NCBI GenBank assembly: GCA_003152255.1
Contig: PLZT01000151.1
Location: 8,019-19,365, forward strand
Direction: 5' to 3'
Origin: Methylocystaceae bacterium
Lineage (GTDB): Bacteria; Pseudomonadota; Alphaproteobacteria; Rhizobiales; Beijerinckiaceae
Length of the DNA: 11,347 nt
The notes beneath the pieces are model-generated. The model ran no database searches. It saw nothing but the letters and a program-made list of their open reading frames with translations, and was not told the origin of the DNA. The stretch's first letter is position 1; every line of letters begins with the position of its first letter. This document shows, piece by piece, positions 6,773-11,337 of this stretch. The translations under genes were made by a program, and so were the position numbers.

Positions 6773-7849
6773 ATGATCATGCGAATCTCGACGATTGCGT
6801 CATTGCTCCTATTCCTCGCGACCGGCTCCTCTGTCGCGGCGGACTCCTTGCGTGAACAGGCGAAGGGGCTGTTCGAGCCCATACCAGCCGCCGCGCCCGC
6901 CCTACCGGGAGACCCGGCGACGCCCCAGACGCTCGCGCTCGGCAAGATGCTGTACTTTGATCCGCGACTCTCGGAGAACAACGACATCAGCTGCGCCGCC
7001 TGTCACAACATCGGCATGGGGGGAGTCGGCGGCCCCGCCTCCTCGAAGGGGCATAGCGGCGAGCTCGCCGGCCGCAATGTGTTGACGGTCTTGAACGCCG
7101 TCTTCAACAAGTCGCAGTTTTGGGACGGCCGCGCCGCCGATCTCAAGGAGCAGGTCGTGCTCGGCGTGATGGCCAACCCCGCCGCCATGTTGAAGACGAG
7201 AGGTGGACCGATTATCGGCGATTCCGCGGCCAATAATCTCACCAAGCAACATATCGTCGAGCGGCTCAAGAGCATTCCCATCTATGTCGAGGCGTTTAAA
7301 AAGGCGTTTCCGGCCGAATCCGATCCGATCGTCTACGACAATATCGGAAAGGCCATCGCTGTTTTCGAAGCGACCTTGATAACGCCGGACGCTCCTTTCG
7401 ACCTTTGGCTGAACGGCGACGACAACGCGCTTTCGGAAGATCAGAAGGCCGGCCTGAAAATCTTCATCGATAAGGGATGCTCAAACTGCCACAACGGGGT
7501 CAATATTGGCGGCGGAACCTTCGCGCGCTTTGGAATGGCGCAATCCCCGGGTTCCGAATTGCTGCCATCGGACGATTGGGGCCGCTTCGCGGTCACCAAG
7601 AATGTCGCCGACAAATACGCCTTCAAGGTTCCGAGCCTACGGAATTTCGAATTGATCGCGCCCTATTTTCATACGGGGCAAACAGTGGATCCGAGAAAAG
7701 CTGTCGCGATCATGGGCGCGTCTCAGCTCGGGCAAAAGCTGAGCGACGGCGAGATCGACAAAATCGTGGCCTTCCTCAAATCGCTGACAGGGCGCCAGCC
7801 GGAGGTCGTACTGCCGATTCTGCCTCCGAATGCTCTCCCCGCCCCCTAG
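6773..7849 (+). CDS. Di-heme cytochrome c peroxidase (CcpA/MauG superfamily), periplasmic
   Basis: 358 residues with a Sec signal peptide (helix about 4-21, cleavage near SVAAD at 20-24). Two c-type haem sites: CAACH at 74-78 and CSNCH at 236-240. Other classical bacterial peroxidase marks are FDPRLSENNDISC, GRNVLTVLNAVFNKSQFWDG (100-119), VMANPAAM, GRFAVTKNVADKYAFKVPSL, APYFHTGQ, and AVAIMGASQLGQKLSDGEID with the probable distal methionine Met314. It reduces hydrogen peroxide to water using electrons from a small cytochrome or cupredoxin. The length and motifs fit true CcpA-type enzymes better than MauG, which modifies methylamine dehydrogenase; no mau genes are here. AGAGG precedes the first ATG by six bases; an ATG two codons later is also possible. 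Probably its own transcript, ended by the hairpin at 7881. Confidence 0.93.
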   Translation: MIMRISTIASLLLFLATGSSVAADSLREQAKGLFEPIPAAAPALPGDPATPQTLALGKMLYFDPRLSENNDISCAACHNIGMGGVGGPASSKGHSGELAGRNVLTVLNAVFNKSQFWDGRAADLKEQVVLGVMANPAAMLKTRGGPIIGDSAANNLTKQHIVERLKSIPIYVEAFKKAFPAESDPIVYDNIGKAIAVFEATLITPDAPFDLWLNGDDNALSEDQKAGLKIFIDKGCSNCHNGVNIGGGTFARFGMAQSPGSELLPSDDWGRFAVTKNVADKYAFKVPSLRNFELIAPYFHTGQTVDPRKAVAIMGASQLGQKLSDGEIDKIVAFLKSLTGRQPEVVLPILPPNALPAP

Positions 7850-7880
7850 GCGAGGCTAGGCCGCGCGACGGAAGGCGCGA

Positions 7881-7913
7881 GGAAATCCGGCGGTTTGGTC
7901 CGGGTTTCCTTTC
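7881..7913 (+). terminator. Intrinsic-type terminator of the peroxidase gene
   Basis: GGAAATCCGG (7881-7890) pairs with CCGGGTTTCC (7900-7909) over ten base pairs (one G-U) with a nine-base loop. It is followed by a short T-run (TTTCCC when read from 7910). The stem lies 32 bases past the peroxidase stop and separates it from the fluoride-responsive unit. Confidence 0.7.
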
Positions 7914-7966
7914 CCGCCCGCCGCAATGATCCGTCACAATAATTATGTGGGAAAGCGGTGGGCTTG

Positions 7967-7995
7967 TTGACACGACTGGCCCGCTGACGTTTAAC
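7967..7995 (+). promoter_or_regulatory. Sigma70-like promoter of the riboswitch-exporter operon
   Basis: A perfect -35 TTGACA (7967-7972), exactly 17 bases, then TTTAAC (7990-7995) as -10. The predicted start of transcription, about seven bases further on, falls at 8001-8003, directly in front of the first paired base of the fluoride aptamer (8004). That agreement between two independent signals supports both. Confidence 0.75.
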
Positions 7996-8003
7996 CTTGG
8001 CTT

Positions 8004-8067
8004 CGGCGATGGAGTTCGCCGTACAACCGCCTCGATGGTTTAGCGCCGGGGCTGATGACTCCTACTG
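8004..8067 (+). promoter_or_regulatory. Fluoride riboswitch aptamer (crcB motif)
   Basis: All parts of the fluoride aptamer can be traced. P1: CGGCGA (8004-8009) with TCGCCG (8016-8021). The P1 loop TGGAGT (8010-8015) carries GGAGT, which makes the pseudoknot with ACTCC (8058-8062). The junction ACAACC (8023-8028) precedes stem GCCTC (8029-8033) with GGGGC (8048-8052), which has a 14-base loop. The invariant TGATG (8053-8057) and CCTACTG (8061-8067) close the motif. The same blocks, in the same order, occur in the known Thermotoga petrophila and Pseudomonas syringae aptamers. The RNA binds one fluoride ion through magnesium ions. It would sense fluoride and control the exporter genes that follow. 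Confidence 0.93.
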
Positions 8068-8087
8068 TCATAAGCAGGGGAGGAGTC
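8057..8087 (+). promoter_or_regulatory. Expression platform: Shine-Dalgarno-sequestering hairpin
   Basis: GACTCCT (8057-8063) pairs perfectly with AGGAGTC (8081-8087), with an inner CTG (8065-8067) / CAG (8075-8077) pairing. The right arm is the ribosome-binding site GGGGAGGAG (8077-8085) of the leader ORF. The left arm contains the pseudoknot strand ACTCC (8058-8062). GGAGT therefore occurs twice, in the aptamer (8011-8015) and at the ribosome-binding site (8082-8086), and both copies compete for one ACTCC. Fluoride-bound RNA should free the ribosome-binding site, an ON switch at translation. No terminator hairpin with a T-run is present here. Confidence 0.7.
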
Positions 8088-8090
8088 CGC

Positions 8091-8186
8091 GTGGAAAACG
8101 CTCGATCCATTGTCGTAAAAGCGAGGCTCGCCCGTCGCGACCGTCGGTTCGCGGCTAACCGGCCGACGGCGCTGGGCGCGGTCTAG
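8091..8186 (+). CDS. Putative 31-residue leader peptide under the fluoride riboswitch
   Basis: A GTG-started ORF whose product begins MENARSIVVKARLARRDRRF and ends PTALGAV. GGGGAGGAG lies five bases before the GTG, while the exporter's own ATG two bases after this ORF's stop has no visible ribosome-binding site. The simplest reading is that ribosomes load here and reinitiate at 8189. The peptide is basic (eight arginine or lysine residues) with no membrane helix, and matches nothing I know. It might be only a coupling device or a remnant of a longer gene once controlled by the riboswitch. It is not a frameshifted N-terminus of the exporter: its frame meets a stop soon after, and the exporter frame has a stop at 8156. 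Confidence 0.55.
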   Translation: MENARSIVVKARLARRDRRFAANRPTALGAV

Positions 8187-8188
8187 CC

Positions 8189-9781
8189 ATGCCGCGCGGC
8201 GATTCCCAACGCCTGAGCGGATGGCGTTTTCTGCTGCTCAACATCGTGCTCGGGCTCGGCAATGTCGTCGTGTTGTCCAATGTGCCGGGCTATACGATTG
8301 TCGCGCCCTATGCGGCCGGCAATCTGCAGGGCGTGACGCCGAGCTTCGGCACGTGGGCGACGACGGACCATATGATCGGCCTCGCGCTGGGCTTTCCTCT
8401 CGCGCGCTGGATCGCGGCCAGACTCGGCGCTCACCGCGCTCTCGTCGCGGCCTATGCGCTTTATGCCGTCTTCTCGTTCGTTTGCGCCATGAGCGAAACG
8501 ATCTACTTTTTCGTGGCCGCGCGCATTCTGCTTGGCCTCGCCGGCGGCGTCATTCTCCCGATCGGCCAATCCGTGCTGCTGAACGAATATCCCGAAAAAC
8601 TGCGGACGTTCGGCGTCGGAGTTTGGGGCATCCTCGGCATGATGCCGTTCATGGTCGGGATTTTCATCGGCGGCTGGTGGGCCGAACATTTCGGCTGGCG
8701 CTATTTGTTCTACTCGAACATCCCGGTCGCGCTCCTGGCCGCCGGCGTCGCGGGCTCCCTGCTGTACGGCCGCGAGATTCGCCCGCGTTTTCATCGCTTC
8801 GACTTTGTCGGCTTTTTCCTGCTCGCGGCGGTTTTTCTCGGTTCGCAGACGATTTTCAACATGGGCAACGACTTCGACTGGCTCCACTCGCCTATCTTGG
8901 TCGGCGTGCTGATTGTGGTAGCGCTGGCGCTGCCTTGCTTCGTCATCTGGGAGCTTGGCGAACGACATCCGGCGATCGACGTCCGTCTCTTCACTCACCG
9001 CAATTATGCGATCGCGACGCTCTGCTCGGTGGTGGGGTTCCTGGTCATTCAGGGATTGTTGTCCCTGTTCATCGTGCAAATGCAAGTGCTTCTCGGCTAC
9101 AGCTCGTCCCTCGCCGGCGGCGTCTATCTCTGGATGTTGCTGTTGTCCGTGCCATCCGCCGCGATCGTGCACGAGCTGTGCAAGCAGATCGACGTTCGCC
9201 TGATCTGTTGCATGAACTTTCTTGGCTTCGCCGCGACGCTGACCTGGTTCGGCATGTTCGACAAAACCGCCTCCTTCGATCAGATCGCCTGGCCGATGAC
9301 CTTTTTCGGCTTCTCGCTCGCCATGTTCTTTACGCCGCTGGCGAATCTCGCGATGTTTGGTCTGCAGGGCGCGCAACTCATCCGCGCGGCGGAGGAGTTC
9401 GCGCTGCTGCGGACGGTCGCCGGCGGCTTTGGCATCGCGCTGCAAGGCGTGGTTCTGTTCCGGCGCACGCCGCAACACGTGCTCGCTCTTTCGGATCAGT
9501 TTGATGGGAGACGCTTCGCCGAACTCGATCAGATGACCCAACTGTCCGACAGGCTTCAAGCTTTGGGCTTCACCCAGGCCATGGCCAGTAGCCAGGTCGG
9601 GCGCTTTCTGCGACAGCAGGCGGGGCTGCTGGCGCTCAACGACGCCTTTCTGCTCGGCGCCGTCGTGTTCGTCGGACTCGCCGTCGTCGTTTGGCTCGCC
9701 CGCACCACCCACCCCTTGCGTCTGACCGCCGCGCAAGAGCTGAAGCAACTCACAGCCGAGGAGCTGATGGAACAGCCATGA
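8189..9781 (+). CDS. DHA2-family MFS exporter (EmrB/QacA-like)
   Basis: 530 residues with about 14 hydrophobic helices, the size and topology of DHA2 drug:proton antiporters such as EmrB. Family marks: VAPYAAGNLQG and GTWATTDHMIG (38-64), close to the EmrB region around its first two helices; the loop 2-3 motif ARWIAARLGAHR (72-83); ARILLGLAGGVILPIGQSVL (111-130); and GGWWAEHFGWRYLFYSNIPV (161-180), the exporter motif that ends helix 5. It should exchange protons for an unknown substrate at the inner membrane. A close outer-membrane partner overlaps its 3' end as ATGA. The ATG has no evident ribosome-binding site and probably depends on reinitiation from the leader ORF. Control by a fluoride riboswitch suggests a role in fluoride stress, but DHA2 proteins are not known fluoride carriers, so the true cargo is open. 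Confidence 0.92.
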   Translation: MPRGDSQRLSGWRFLLLNIVLGLGNVVVLSNVPGYTIVAPYAAGNLQGVTPSFGTWATTDHMIGLALGFPLARWIAARLGAHRALVAAYALYAVFSFVCAMSETIYFFVAARILLGLAGGVILPIGQSVLLNEYPEKLRTFGVGVWGILGMMPFMVGIFIGGWWAEHFGWRYLFYSNIPVALLAAGVAGSLLYGREIRPRFHRFDFVGFFLLAAVFLGSQTIFNMGNDFDWLHSPILVGVLIVVALALPCFVIWELGERHPAIDVRLFTHRNYAIATLCSVVGFLVIQGLLSLFIVQMQVLLGYSSSLAGGVYLWMLLLSVPSAAIVHELCKQIDVRLICCMNFLGFAATLTWFGMFDKTASFDQIAWPMTFFGFSLAMFFTPLANLAMFGLQGAQLIRAAEEFALLRTVAGGFGIALQGVVLFRRTPQHVLALSDQFDGRRFAELDQMTQLSDRLQALGFTQAMASSQVGRFLRQQAGLLALNDAFLLGAVVFVGLAVVVWLARTTHPLRLTAAQELKQLTAEELMEQP

Positions 9782-11337
9782 CAAGCCGGCGTCTATCCAT
9801 CGCGCCCGCGGCCGGGCTTCTTTTGCTTCTCGGCGGCTGCGCGGAGACGTCACCGAACAGCGAACGCGCGCAATTCATCGAGTCTCCGGCGATGGACCGC
9901 ACCTTGGCGCGGTCTGGCGCGCCGATCGCTTCGCAAACCGAGGCGAACTGGCCCAGCAGCGAATGGTGGCGCCGCTTCCGCAGTCCCGAACTCGACCGCA
10001 TCGTCGAGACGGCGCTGGCTGAAAATCAAAACCTGAAAAAGGCCATGGAAGCGTTGCGCGACGCCGAGGCTTTCTCGGAGGTCGAAGGGGCGCGGCTGTT
10101 GCCCTTCCTCAACGCGGATATGGGCATGCGCCAATCGCGCATTCCCAATCATGGCGTCGTCGCCTCCTATAATCCCGCCCTGGCCGGCCTCGAGAAGACC
10201 ATGGCCTACATCAACCCGCTGTCGCTTCACTACGAATTCGACTTCTGGGGCAAGAACCGGGCGATCCTCAACGCCGCGCTCGGCGAGGCCGCGGCGCAAG
10301 CGTCGGAGGCCGTGGAAGCGCGGCTGCTGCTGACCACCGCCGTCGCGCGCGTCTATTTTCGCATCCGCGCGCTGGCCCGGCAGGCGGAAACCGCGAGCGA
10401 GATGGTCAAACTGCGCCGAGACCTGCTCGCGGTCGCGCAAACGCGGTTCAGAACCGGGATCGACACCGCCGACGGCGTGGCCGAAGCGAGCGCCGCGGTG
10501 GAGGCCGCCGTCAAACGCCAAGCCGGCGTCACGGCGCAACTGGACTTCCAGCAGAATTTGCTCGCGCGCCTCATGGGCCAGGGACCGGACGCCGGACGCG
10601 GCATTGTCGGCGCGAAGGCGATGAGCCCGCCAGCGGCTCCCGCCTTGCCGCGACAACTTCCGGTGGAGCTTCTCGCCCACCGGCCGGACGTCGCCGCCGC
10701 CATGCATCGCGCCGAGGCGGCCGCGGAGCGGATTCACGCCGCCAAGGCGGAGTTCATGCCGTCCGTCGATCTCACGATTGTCGGAGGGCTGGAGGCCTCA
10801 AGGACTTCGACGAAGATCGACGATCTGGGGAAATACTTGTTCCGAACCTCGGCGATCGGCTACGCCGTCACGCCCAACATCCATCTGCCGCTGTTCCAGG
10901 GCGGCAGTTTGCGCGGCAGGCTGGAGGGCCGCCGCTCGGAATATGACGAGGCGGTCGACGGCTACAATGAAACGCTGCTCAAGGCGGCGCAGCAGGTCGC
11001 CGACAGCCTGGCCAGCCTGAAGGAGACGCGCTCCCAGTCGGAGGCGCAGCGCCGCTTGAGCGCCACCGCGCGCGCGGAACTCGAACTCGCGCGCTCGCGC
11101 TGGCGCAGCGGGCTGAAGGATAAGCGCGAACTGCTGGTGCAAGCGCATGTCGCGCTCGAACAGATTTACGTGCTCGACGCGCTCGACGCCGACTACCTGT
11201 CGTCGCATGTGGATCTGATCCAGGCGCTGGGCGGCGGCTATCTGGAGGGTCCAGAAGCGTTCGCGCCGCGGCCGGAGCCGGAAAAGGATCGGCTGACGCC
11301 GCTCGTCGACGCGATCGAGGCGCTCGGCGGCGGATAG
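9778..11337 (+). CDS. Outer-membrane efflux lipoprotein, NodT/TolC family
   Basis: 519 residues, within the usual range of the NodT subfamily. A lipoprotein signal ends in LLLLLGGC with Cys21 as the lipidated residue. The body shows both OEP repeats: WWRRFRSPELDRIVETALAE (63-82) with NQNLKKAMEALRDAEA, then YEFDFWGKNRAILNAALGEA (152-171), and in the second half LLAHRPDVAAAMHRAEAAAE with HRPD at 301-304, followed by FMPSVDLT and LFQGG. Such proteins form trimeric channels through the outer membrane and periplasm. The ATG at 9778 overlaps the exporter stop, so the two are co-translated. A membrane-fusion (HlyD/EmrA) adaptor would complete a tripartite pump; none precedes the pair and only ten bases remain after the stop. 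The C-terminal tail, rich in acidic and proline residues, is longer than strictly needed. Confidence 0.93.
   Translation: MTSRRLSIAPAAGLLLLLGGCAETSPNSERAQFIESPAMDRTLARSGAPIASQTEANWPSSEWWRRFRSPELDRIVETALAENQNLKKAMEALRDAEAFSEVEGARLLPFLNADMGMRQSRIPNHGVVASYNPALAGLEKTMAYINPLSLHYEFDFWGKNRAILNAALGEAAAQASEAVEARLLLTTAVARVYFRIRALARQAETASEMVKLRRDLLAVAQTRFRTGIDTADGVAEASAAVEAAVKRQAGVTAQLDFQQNLLARLMGQGPDAGRGIVGAKAMSPPAAPALPRQLPVELLAHRPDVAAAMHRAEAAAERIHAAKAEFMPSVDLTIVGGLEASRTSTKIDDLGKYLFRTSAIGYAVTPNIHLPLFQGGSLRGRLEGRRSEYDEAVDGYNETLLKAAQQVADSLASLKETRSQSEAQRRLSATARAELELARSRWRSGLKDKRELLVQAHVALEQIYVLDALDADYLSSHVDLIQALGGGYLEGPEAFAPRPEPEKDRLTPLVDAIEALGGG

Follow-up and report, generated by a model that had tools for sequence, protein, structure and literature searches.

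What does a fluoride riboswitch regulate when the genes behind it encode a multidrug-type pump? This question is raised by an 11,347-nucleotide (nt) stretch of DNA from a Methylocystaceae bacterium (contig PLZT01000151.1; the whole stretch is called the window below), in which a fluoride riboswitch heads the genes for an EmrB-like transporter of the major facilitator superfamily (MFS) and an outer-membrane efflux channel. The usual targets of this riboswitch class, as given in the available part of a review (PMC11139923), are the fluoride exporters Fluc (CrcB) and CLC-F, protein families that are unrelated to the pump in the window. Both the riboswitch class and the families of the pump proteins are already known. 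The comparisons described here make it probable that the riboswitch turns on translation of an EmrAB-type, proton-driven pump, which would be part of the fluoride regulon of Methylocystis-type methanotrophs and relieve stress caused by hydrogen fluoride (HF).

The riboswitch and its expression platform

The elements of the leader and the pump genes, including the open reading frame (ORF) between them, are the following:

7967..7972, + strand: -35-like hexamer TTGACA, followed after a spacer of 17 nt by TTTAAC (7990-7995); putative promoter
7996..8071, + strand: fluoride riboswitch aptamer (RF01734, 53.3 bits, E 1e-12)
8005-8008/8017-8020, 8011-8015/8058-8062 and 8029-8031/8050-8052, + strand: aptamer helix P1, pseudoknot and helix P2
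8057..8063, + strand: switching arm 1, GACTCCT, overlapping the 3' pseudoknot strand
8077..8087, + strand: switching arm 2, AGGAGTC (8081-8087), over the Shine-Dalgarno-like GGGGAGGAG (8077-8085); complementary to arm 1
8091..8186, + strand: predicted leader ORF of 31 codons, with a GTG start 5 nt past GGAG, ending 2 nt ahead of the transporter ATG
8189..9781, + strand: DHA2/EmrB-like MFS transporter, 530 amino acids (aa) (PF07690, TIGR00711, PDB EmrB 8zal)
9778..11337, + strand: NodT-type outer-membrane efflux channel, 519 aa, ATG at 9778 (PF02321, TIGR01845)

When the entire window was searched with cmscan at the Rfam gathering thresholds, RF01734 was the sole match, with a score above the gathering value of 34 bits and coverage of the full length of the model (1-64 of 64). 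The crcB-motif aptamer proposed in a preliminary description of this locus is thus confirmed as a predicted structure; the feature start given there, 8004, falls within the aptamer, the model match beginning at 7996. The pseudoknot joins the P1 loop GGAGT with the 3' strand ACTCC. In an alignment of 16 chosen aptamers it was paired in 97.5% of cells, and P1, P2 and pseudoknot together consisted for 98.4% of standard pairs, a value reached by none of 500 shuffles; three pairs had changes on both sides, which was equalled by 23 of the 500. A chance match is ruled out by the RF01734 score together with the recurrence of the element before alphaproteobacterial transporters. From the sequence we infer that the window aptamer binds fluoride and that expression responds to it.

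Upstream of the aptamer, TTGACA starts 28-30 nt 5' of the riboswitch at all 12 riboswitch-transporter loci measured, and it is also present upstream in locus L133 (loci and genomes of relatives are designated L and G). A consensus promoter scan of 7850-8300 does not report the TTGACA site, because the second hexamer deviates from consensus.

Downstream, the two switching arms are predicted to pair with each other when the window leader is folded, and an arm hairpin was found in six of six leaders folded, whose folding z-scores lie between -1.1 (window) and -4.2. For a broader assessment 36 leaders were entered, of which 34 were scored and two, missed by the motif, were dropped. The shuffle fraction for arm complementarity was at most 0.05 in 20 of the 34, including seven of 12 leaders that connect an intact riboswitch to a transporter gene. 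Within those 12, GGAG lies inside arm 2 in nine (the exceptions are L019, L022 and L133), and a start codon follows 5-9 nt downstream in all 13 intact transporter leaders (L144 was read by eye). A scan of 7850-8300 gave no terminator-like site.

In the window, the start codon behind arm 2 opens the short predicted leader ORF, and the chance that it ends at the transporter start was 0.0095 in shuffled sequences. Leader ORFs of 21-64 codons are present at 12 of the 13 intact transporter loci, in a reading frame whose stop codon lies at the transporter ATG or close to it; the stop overlaps this ATG as ATGA at eight loci, and in L133 the leader ORF is fused to the transporter. The leader peptides vary between clades.

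These arrangements suggest the following mechanism. Without fluoride, arm 1 would pair with arm 2 and mask the ribosome-binding site, whereas in the presence of fluoride the pseudoknot would take up arm 1 and leave the site exposed. The 31-codon leader ORF would then be translated, and ribosomes that finish it may start anew at the transporter ATG, 2 nt downstream.

The pump genes

The product of 8189-9781 is an MFS_1 protein (PF07690, E 4.2e-26) that scores narrowly above the cut-off of the DHA2 EmrB subfamily (TIGR00711, 231.7 vs 230.2 bits) and below that for E. coli EmrB itself (NF000391, 259.1 vs 925 bits). Its nearest solved structure is EmrB of EmrAB-TolC (PDB 8zal, sequence E 1.6e-63), and a predicted model with a mean local confidence (pLDDT) of 75.8 superimposes on 8zal_J with template-modelling scores of 0.83/0.88. 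The ATG of the channel gene overlaps the transporter stop codon (ATGA), and its product is an outer-membrane efflux protein (OEP, PF02321) that clearly passes the NodT family cut-off (TIGR01845, 322.4 vs 210.05 bits). The gene families assigned in the preliminary description, an EmrB-like transporter and a NodT-type channel, were therefore correct. At E <= 0.001 only MFS_1 and OEP were found in the two pump proteins, and the Fluc and CLC families (PF02537, PF00654) were absent from both.

A tripartite pump also requires an adaptor. The window ends 10 nt past the channel gene, and for that reason the adaptor gene is known only from relatives: in L019, with a transporter 94% identical to that of the window, an EmrA-like adaptor begins 59 nt past the channel gene, with a score of 258 that is under the EmrA/EmrK cut-off of 390.8. 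To this extent the proposal that fluoride controls a tripartite pump is supported, with the adaptor expected just beyond the window. Transporter, channel and adaptor would together form a pump spanning the cell envelope.

Just 5' of the riboswitch and on the same strand, the window carries a gene for a di-haem peroxidase (6773-7849), which scores above the Pfam CCP_MauG cut-off and below the NCBIfam cut-offs for MbnH-type and MauG proteins.

Recurrence in related genomes

A genome scan with the window transporter yielded 56 loci, 26 of them alphaproteobacterial and 30 from Nitrospirota and other Proteobacteria; riboswitches in relatives were also called with model R1. Directly 5' of the transporter gene a riboswitch was found at 11 of the 26 alphaproteobacterial loci, intact in seven cases (L002, L004, L005, L006, L008, L019, L022) and degenerate in four (L012, L017, L024, L048). 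It was found before none of the 30 other transporters, although for L045 only about 100 nt of upstream sequence was at hand. When 11 non-alphaproteobacterial genomes were searched whole, eight had no riboswitch match, one had a match below the cut-off and two (G022, G025) had matches above it. In these two Nitrospira genomes the riboswitch stands before an ABC transporter permease/ATPase-type gene (L096:6399-7877 in G025, L074 in G022), and the L096 gene has weak matches of the CydC/MsbA kind.

Further intact riboswitch-transporter loci were obtained from a plasmid of Methylocystis iwaonis (L101) and from genomes of the family (L131, L132, L133, L144), whereas the likewise plasmid-borne L102 has a degenerate riboswitch and a transporter identical to that of L017. 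This brings the total to 13 intact loci including the window, some of which are close kin (e.g. L004, L005, L006 and L008); transporter identity to the window drops to 58% among them. The survey of genomes that the preliminary description had called for thus showed that the combination of riboswitch and DHA2 transporter recurs.

How widely the combination occurs was examined at the levels of the family and the class. Of 149 genomes drawn from the family, eight contain the transporter subfamily (E <= 1e-100), 11 the methane monooxygenase gene pmoA and seven both (p 9e-9). Six of the 11 pmoA genomes have a riboswitch-controlled pump gene (G002, G005, G013, G044, G116, G140); the other five have the riboswitch on a gene for a hypothetical protein, HYP148, instead (G069, G105, G152 with a 39% relative, G154, G171). 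In the class, 385 genomes were covered; G013 was the only one with a match to the transporter subfamily (E <= 1e-90), and 19 had the riboswitch above cut-off, where the usual targets are CrcB, an antiporter or a CLC-F-like CLC protein. In the 385-genome set these wide searches scored the best first-look candidates per genome, three for the transporter subfamily and 13 for the riboswitch, so weaker relatives may have been missed. There were 23 places above the cut-off in the class, two of them already known from G013 and one without a locus. At the 20 others, no DHA2, channel or adaptor gene was detected within about 1.5 kb downstream of the riboswitch (BLAST with chosen representatives, E <= 1e-3); the targets are CrcB (11 loci), an antiporter (three), a CLC (three), another MFS protein, a weak NifU-like protein and, at one locus, no ORF. 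As judged from these samples, the pump as a fluoride target is a feature of this group of methanotrophs.

Some observations stand apart. A protein with a weak NifU-like match is encoded behind a fluoride riboswitch at L163:1588-2376, as does a different MFS protein of 402 aa at L167:199-1404 (- strand). The genomes G040 (13 matches) and G060 (seven) are unusually rich in fluoride riboswitches, nine of those in G040 lying inside about 39 kb.

Operon layouts and co-regulated genes

The riboswitch heads several arrangements of pump and related genes:

riboswitch, transporter, channel, adaptor: L002, L019, L022, L132, L133, and the window as far as covered
riboswitch, transporter, channel, adaptor, CPA2 cation/H+ antiporter: L101, L131
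riboswitch, antiporter, channel, adaptor: L145
riboswitch, transporter, with no channel or adaptor adjacent: L004, L005, L006, L008, L144
riboswitch, channel, adaptor, P-type H+-ATPase, polyphosphate kinase 2 (PPK2): L087, L088, L089, L090, L099 (five of five fetched)

Twelve genomes carry a channel gene of this family that is preceded by a separate fluoride riboswitch (L057-L068); the five that were fetched at length (L087-L090, L099) have the order channel, adaptor, H+-ATPase, PPK2 given above. The assignment of the P-type H+-ATPase rests on scores of 930.3 and 922.4 vs 615.5 bits (two proteins scored), and that of PPK2 on 360.6 vs 247.2 (one scored). Some Methylocystis genomes contain a split pump, in which the transporter gene and the channel-adaptor genes each have their own riboswitch. 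Methylocystis sp. B8 (G005) is an example, with three separate riboswitches that head the transporter, the channel-adaptor-H+-ATPase-PPK2 unit and CrcB. Because both halves of the pump are separately placed under the same switch, hitch-hiking is hard to credit.

Other units headed by the riboswitch encode the antiporter, accompanied by a universal stress protein in L092 and L094, or HYP148. In genomes with the pump riboswitch, the same riboswitch class also precedes CrcB (G005, G013, G027) or the antiporter (G044, G116). HYP148 is a protein of 148 aa with long N-terminal helices and a conserved Cys; it is encoded behind a fluoride riboswitch at L092:8642-9100, L094, L095, L097, L098, L135 and L142 (proteins P0121-P0211). 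The member P0125 had no Pfam or NCBIfam match, and a fold search found no PDB match at E <= 0.001. The family occurs in 12 of the 149 genomes, which are all 11 with pmoA and G084, which has the pump, and it has 91 relatives in the database.

Role of the pump

The co-regulated H+-ATPase, cation/H+ antiporter, PPK2 and universal stress protein suggest that the regulon deals with acid and energy stress. As far as the available text of the review goes, fluoride stress has been tied to pH homeostasis, Na+/H+ antiporters and phosphate (PMC11139923). The pump and these co-regulated proteins would together relieve the acid and energy stress driven by HF. The substrate ejected is most likely a weak-acid or anionic compound, for which the sequence offers hints only.

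Several observations weigh against this reading. The proposed function in acid stress is suggested by neighbouring genes. The arm complementarity of the window is only suggestive when taken alone (shuffle fraction 0.064), arm 2 of the nearest relative L019 has a mismatch (0.608), and in 14 of the 34 scored leaders the fraction exceeds 0.05. Compared with shuffled sequence, the open leader frame stands out at three loci only, namely the window, L019 and L144 (0.0095, 0.015 and 0.048), and is within chance at nine of 12 (0.36-1.0). It was consequently rejected as stand-alone proof of a leader gene, and translational coupling of the leader ORF to the pump, as deduced from these frames, is likely, not proved. 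Some of the transporters have no riboswitch: on a maximum-likelihood tree built from 65 of them (three of 68 rows, including L023, were dropped as identical), the riboswitch label, intact or degenerate, requires nine changes, so the riboswitch was gained or lost repeatedly. In Methylosinus trichosporium OB3b a MarR gene lies upstream of the transporter gene, in a region without a riboswitch match, from which it follows that the role of the transporter is wider than fluoride.

Loss of the riboswitch may be visible in the upstream regions of L014, L040, L007 and L013, which belong to the same clade; these have TTGACA, no riboswitch match and a short ATGACTC-like remnant, and read like riboswitch loss. 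Methylocystis sp. KS32 contains a 4,458-bp pump cassette twice, 99.98% identical (L022:5985-10442, L023:5985-10442), with one copy behind a fluoride riboswitch and the other behind unrelated sequence, the breakpoint being the transporter ATG; the two transporters are identical.

An alternative that we regard as unlikely is that the pump exports fluoride itself, as F- or HF, and forms a third route beside Fluc and CLC-F that substitutes where CrcB is missing. To this question 25 related genomes are relevant, a biased set chosen for the presence of riboswitch, pump or pmoA, several of which are fragmentary or metagenome-assembled genomes (MAGs). All 25 have a fluoride riboswitch above cut-off, 14 have CrcB and 16 a CLC protein. 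No CrcB match was obtained in the remaining 11 (G001, G002, G004, G006, G008, G009, G012, G017, G044, G084, G116), and a Methylocystis CrcB query at E <= 1, which recovered four positive controls, left nine of them without a match, whereas G009 (0.07) and G012 (0.004) yielded weak fragments. The absence is most credible for G044 and G116, since these are on chromosome-sized contigs (4.3 and 4.6 Mb).

Could a CLC-type exporter have taken over in these organisms? The motif GNN is characteristic of CLC-F, and it is present in the riboswitch-linked CLCs of L169, L170 and L176. Unlike these, the CLCs read from six of the 11 CrcB-negative genomes (G001, G008, G012, G044, G084 and G116) have the chloride-type motifs GSGIP and GREGP and no GNN, by which they were rejected as hidden CLC-F exporters; G001 has another CLC-like gene, which is split and carries GNGI. 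No CLC match was found in G002, G004, G006 and G017. The nearest relative of the window, the MAG G001, thus combines the lack of a CrcB match with a full-length CLC of the chloride type.

An intact riboswitch-transporter locus goes together with CrcB absence (8/10 vs 3/15, Fisher p 0.005), a correlation in which kinship and missing sequence are uncontrolled. Two residues also fit with transport of fluoride. The first-helix Asp of EmrB is replaced by Asn31 in 31 of 32 transporters of the alphaproteobacterial clade (one gap), and the second helix has His61 in all 32, at a position occupied by Phe in EmrB and all 29 gammaproteobacterial and nitrifier rows, and by Tyr in four paralogs. However, Asn31 does not set the riboswitch clade apart, being shared by nearly all gamma and nitrifier relatives, and His61 is present with or without a riboswitch. 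No riboswitch was found upstream in the gamma and nitrifier relatives, and a pump that spans the outer membrane would be odd for a small ion that is able to return as HF. We know of no DHA2 protein that carries F-, which also counts against fluoride export.

G005 and G140 have CrcB and the riboswitch-pump together. Replacement of CrcB by the pump everywhere is ruled out by the CrcB riboswitch unit of G005 and by CrcB in 14 of the 25 genomes. The preliminary description had the pump stand instead of crcB or CLC-F, and this is not general, since CrcB has its own riboswitch in some genomes; it would fit G001. That in methanotrophs without Fluc and CLC-F the MFS-adaptor-channel assembly, with its clade-specific His61 and its Asn31, could be a proton-driven, envelope-spanning third fluoride exporter is a doubtful proposition at present.

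Less likely than fluoride export is the possibility that fluoride serves as a signal for fluorinated organic compounds co-oxidised by methane monooxygenase, or for metal-fluoride complexes, and that the pump expels those; we give it little credence. It would explain why seven of the eight transporter carriers have pmoA, as compared to 11 of 149 genomes overall, but kinship at the genus level could yield the same correlation, and the related pumps of Nitrospira, Nitrococcus and gammaproteobacterial methanotrophs are not preceded by a riboswitch. No organofluorine gene was noted in the neighbourhood, although no search was aimed at such genes, and the co-regulated genes better match acid and energy stress. 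For such a substrate, which the preliminary description had put forward, nothing in favour was thus found.

Finally, it is highly improbable that the pairing is accidental or decaying, with a mobile leader that happens to precede a general multidrug pump: the degenerate aptamers before the L012, L017, L024 and L048 transporters (31.9-32.2 Rfam bits, four scored) and on the plasmid locus L102 (model R1), the loss of riboswitches inside the same clade and the KS32 cassette with and without riboswitch would fit, but the pairing is met again in more than one clade and in different operon layouts, one genome has a separate riboswitch on each half of the split pump, and the window aptamer has retained the conserved core.

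Comparison with known systems

With other fluoride riboswitches that have a translational platform (RF01734) the window element shares the aptamer core, the pseudoknot and an alternative arm that would capture the 3' pseudoknot strand. For transcriptional fluoride riboswitches, the accessible part of one study describes strand exchange that extends into the expression platform (PMC13273304). The window element is different in that arm 2 holds a Shine-Dalgarno-like site for a leader ORF abutting the transporter gene, without a terminator-like site in the region scanned. The transporter resembles EmrB of the E. coli EmrAB-TolC system in fold and sequence family, and an EmrA-like adaptor is encoded in relatives of the window; the differences are an identity of 26% over the fold alignment, a NodT-type instead of a TolC channel, Asn31 instead of Asp, and the fluoride riboswitch.

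A further parallel is the operon for fluoride resistance in Enterobacter cloacae FRM (ppaC, uspA, eno, gpmA, crcB, orf5249), which, as far as the available text describes it, likewise combines a fluoride riboswitch with a universal stress protein and phosphate-related genes (PMC5533749). Its transporters are different, namely crcB and the annotated divalent-cation ATPase orf5249, with no MFS pump in the operon as described in that text; two RND efflux genes beside it were barely altered, at 0.9 and 1.4 fold (PMC5533749). In Methylocystis genomes with a riboswitch-headed CrcB, this exporter is a separate riboswitch unit.

Fluc and CLC-F are the only bacterial fluoride exporters named in the portion of the review available, where the terms 'MFS', 'major facilitator' and 'multidrug' do not occur (PMC11139923). 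The first paper on the crcB motif mentions, in its accessible part, mutS, K+ or Cl- transport and formate hydrogen lyase (PMC2864571). The genome paper on Methylocystis sp. B8 gives a fluoride concentration of 3.19 mg/L for the water sampled, and the words 'riboswitch' and 'multidrug' are absent from the text obtained (PMC7716213). Among the titles and first parts of abstracts listed, no published description of a fluoride riboswitch before this pump was found; an earlier mention is possible.

Significance

The repeated placement of a fluoride switch on a tripartite pump, including some genomes in which no known exporter was found, offers a testable lead to a new fluoride response. It raises the questions which compound has to be exported once fluoride has come in, and whether a pump of the drug type is able to take on the work of Fluc. 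In these methanotrophs the fluoride regulon appears to extend to a proton ATPase, PPK2 and the membrane protein HYP148.

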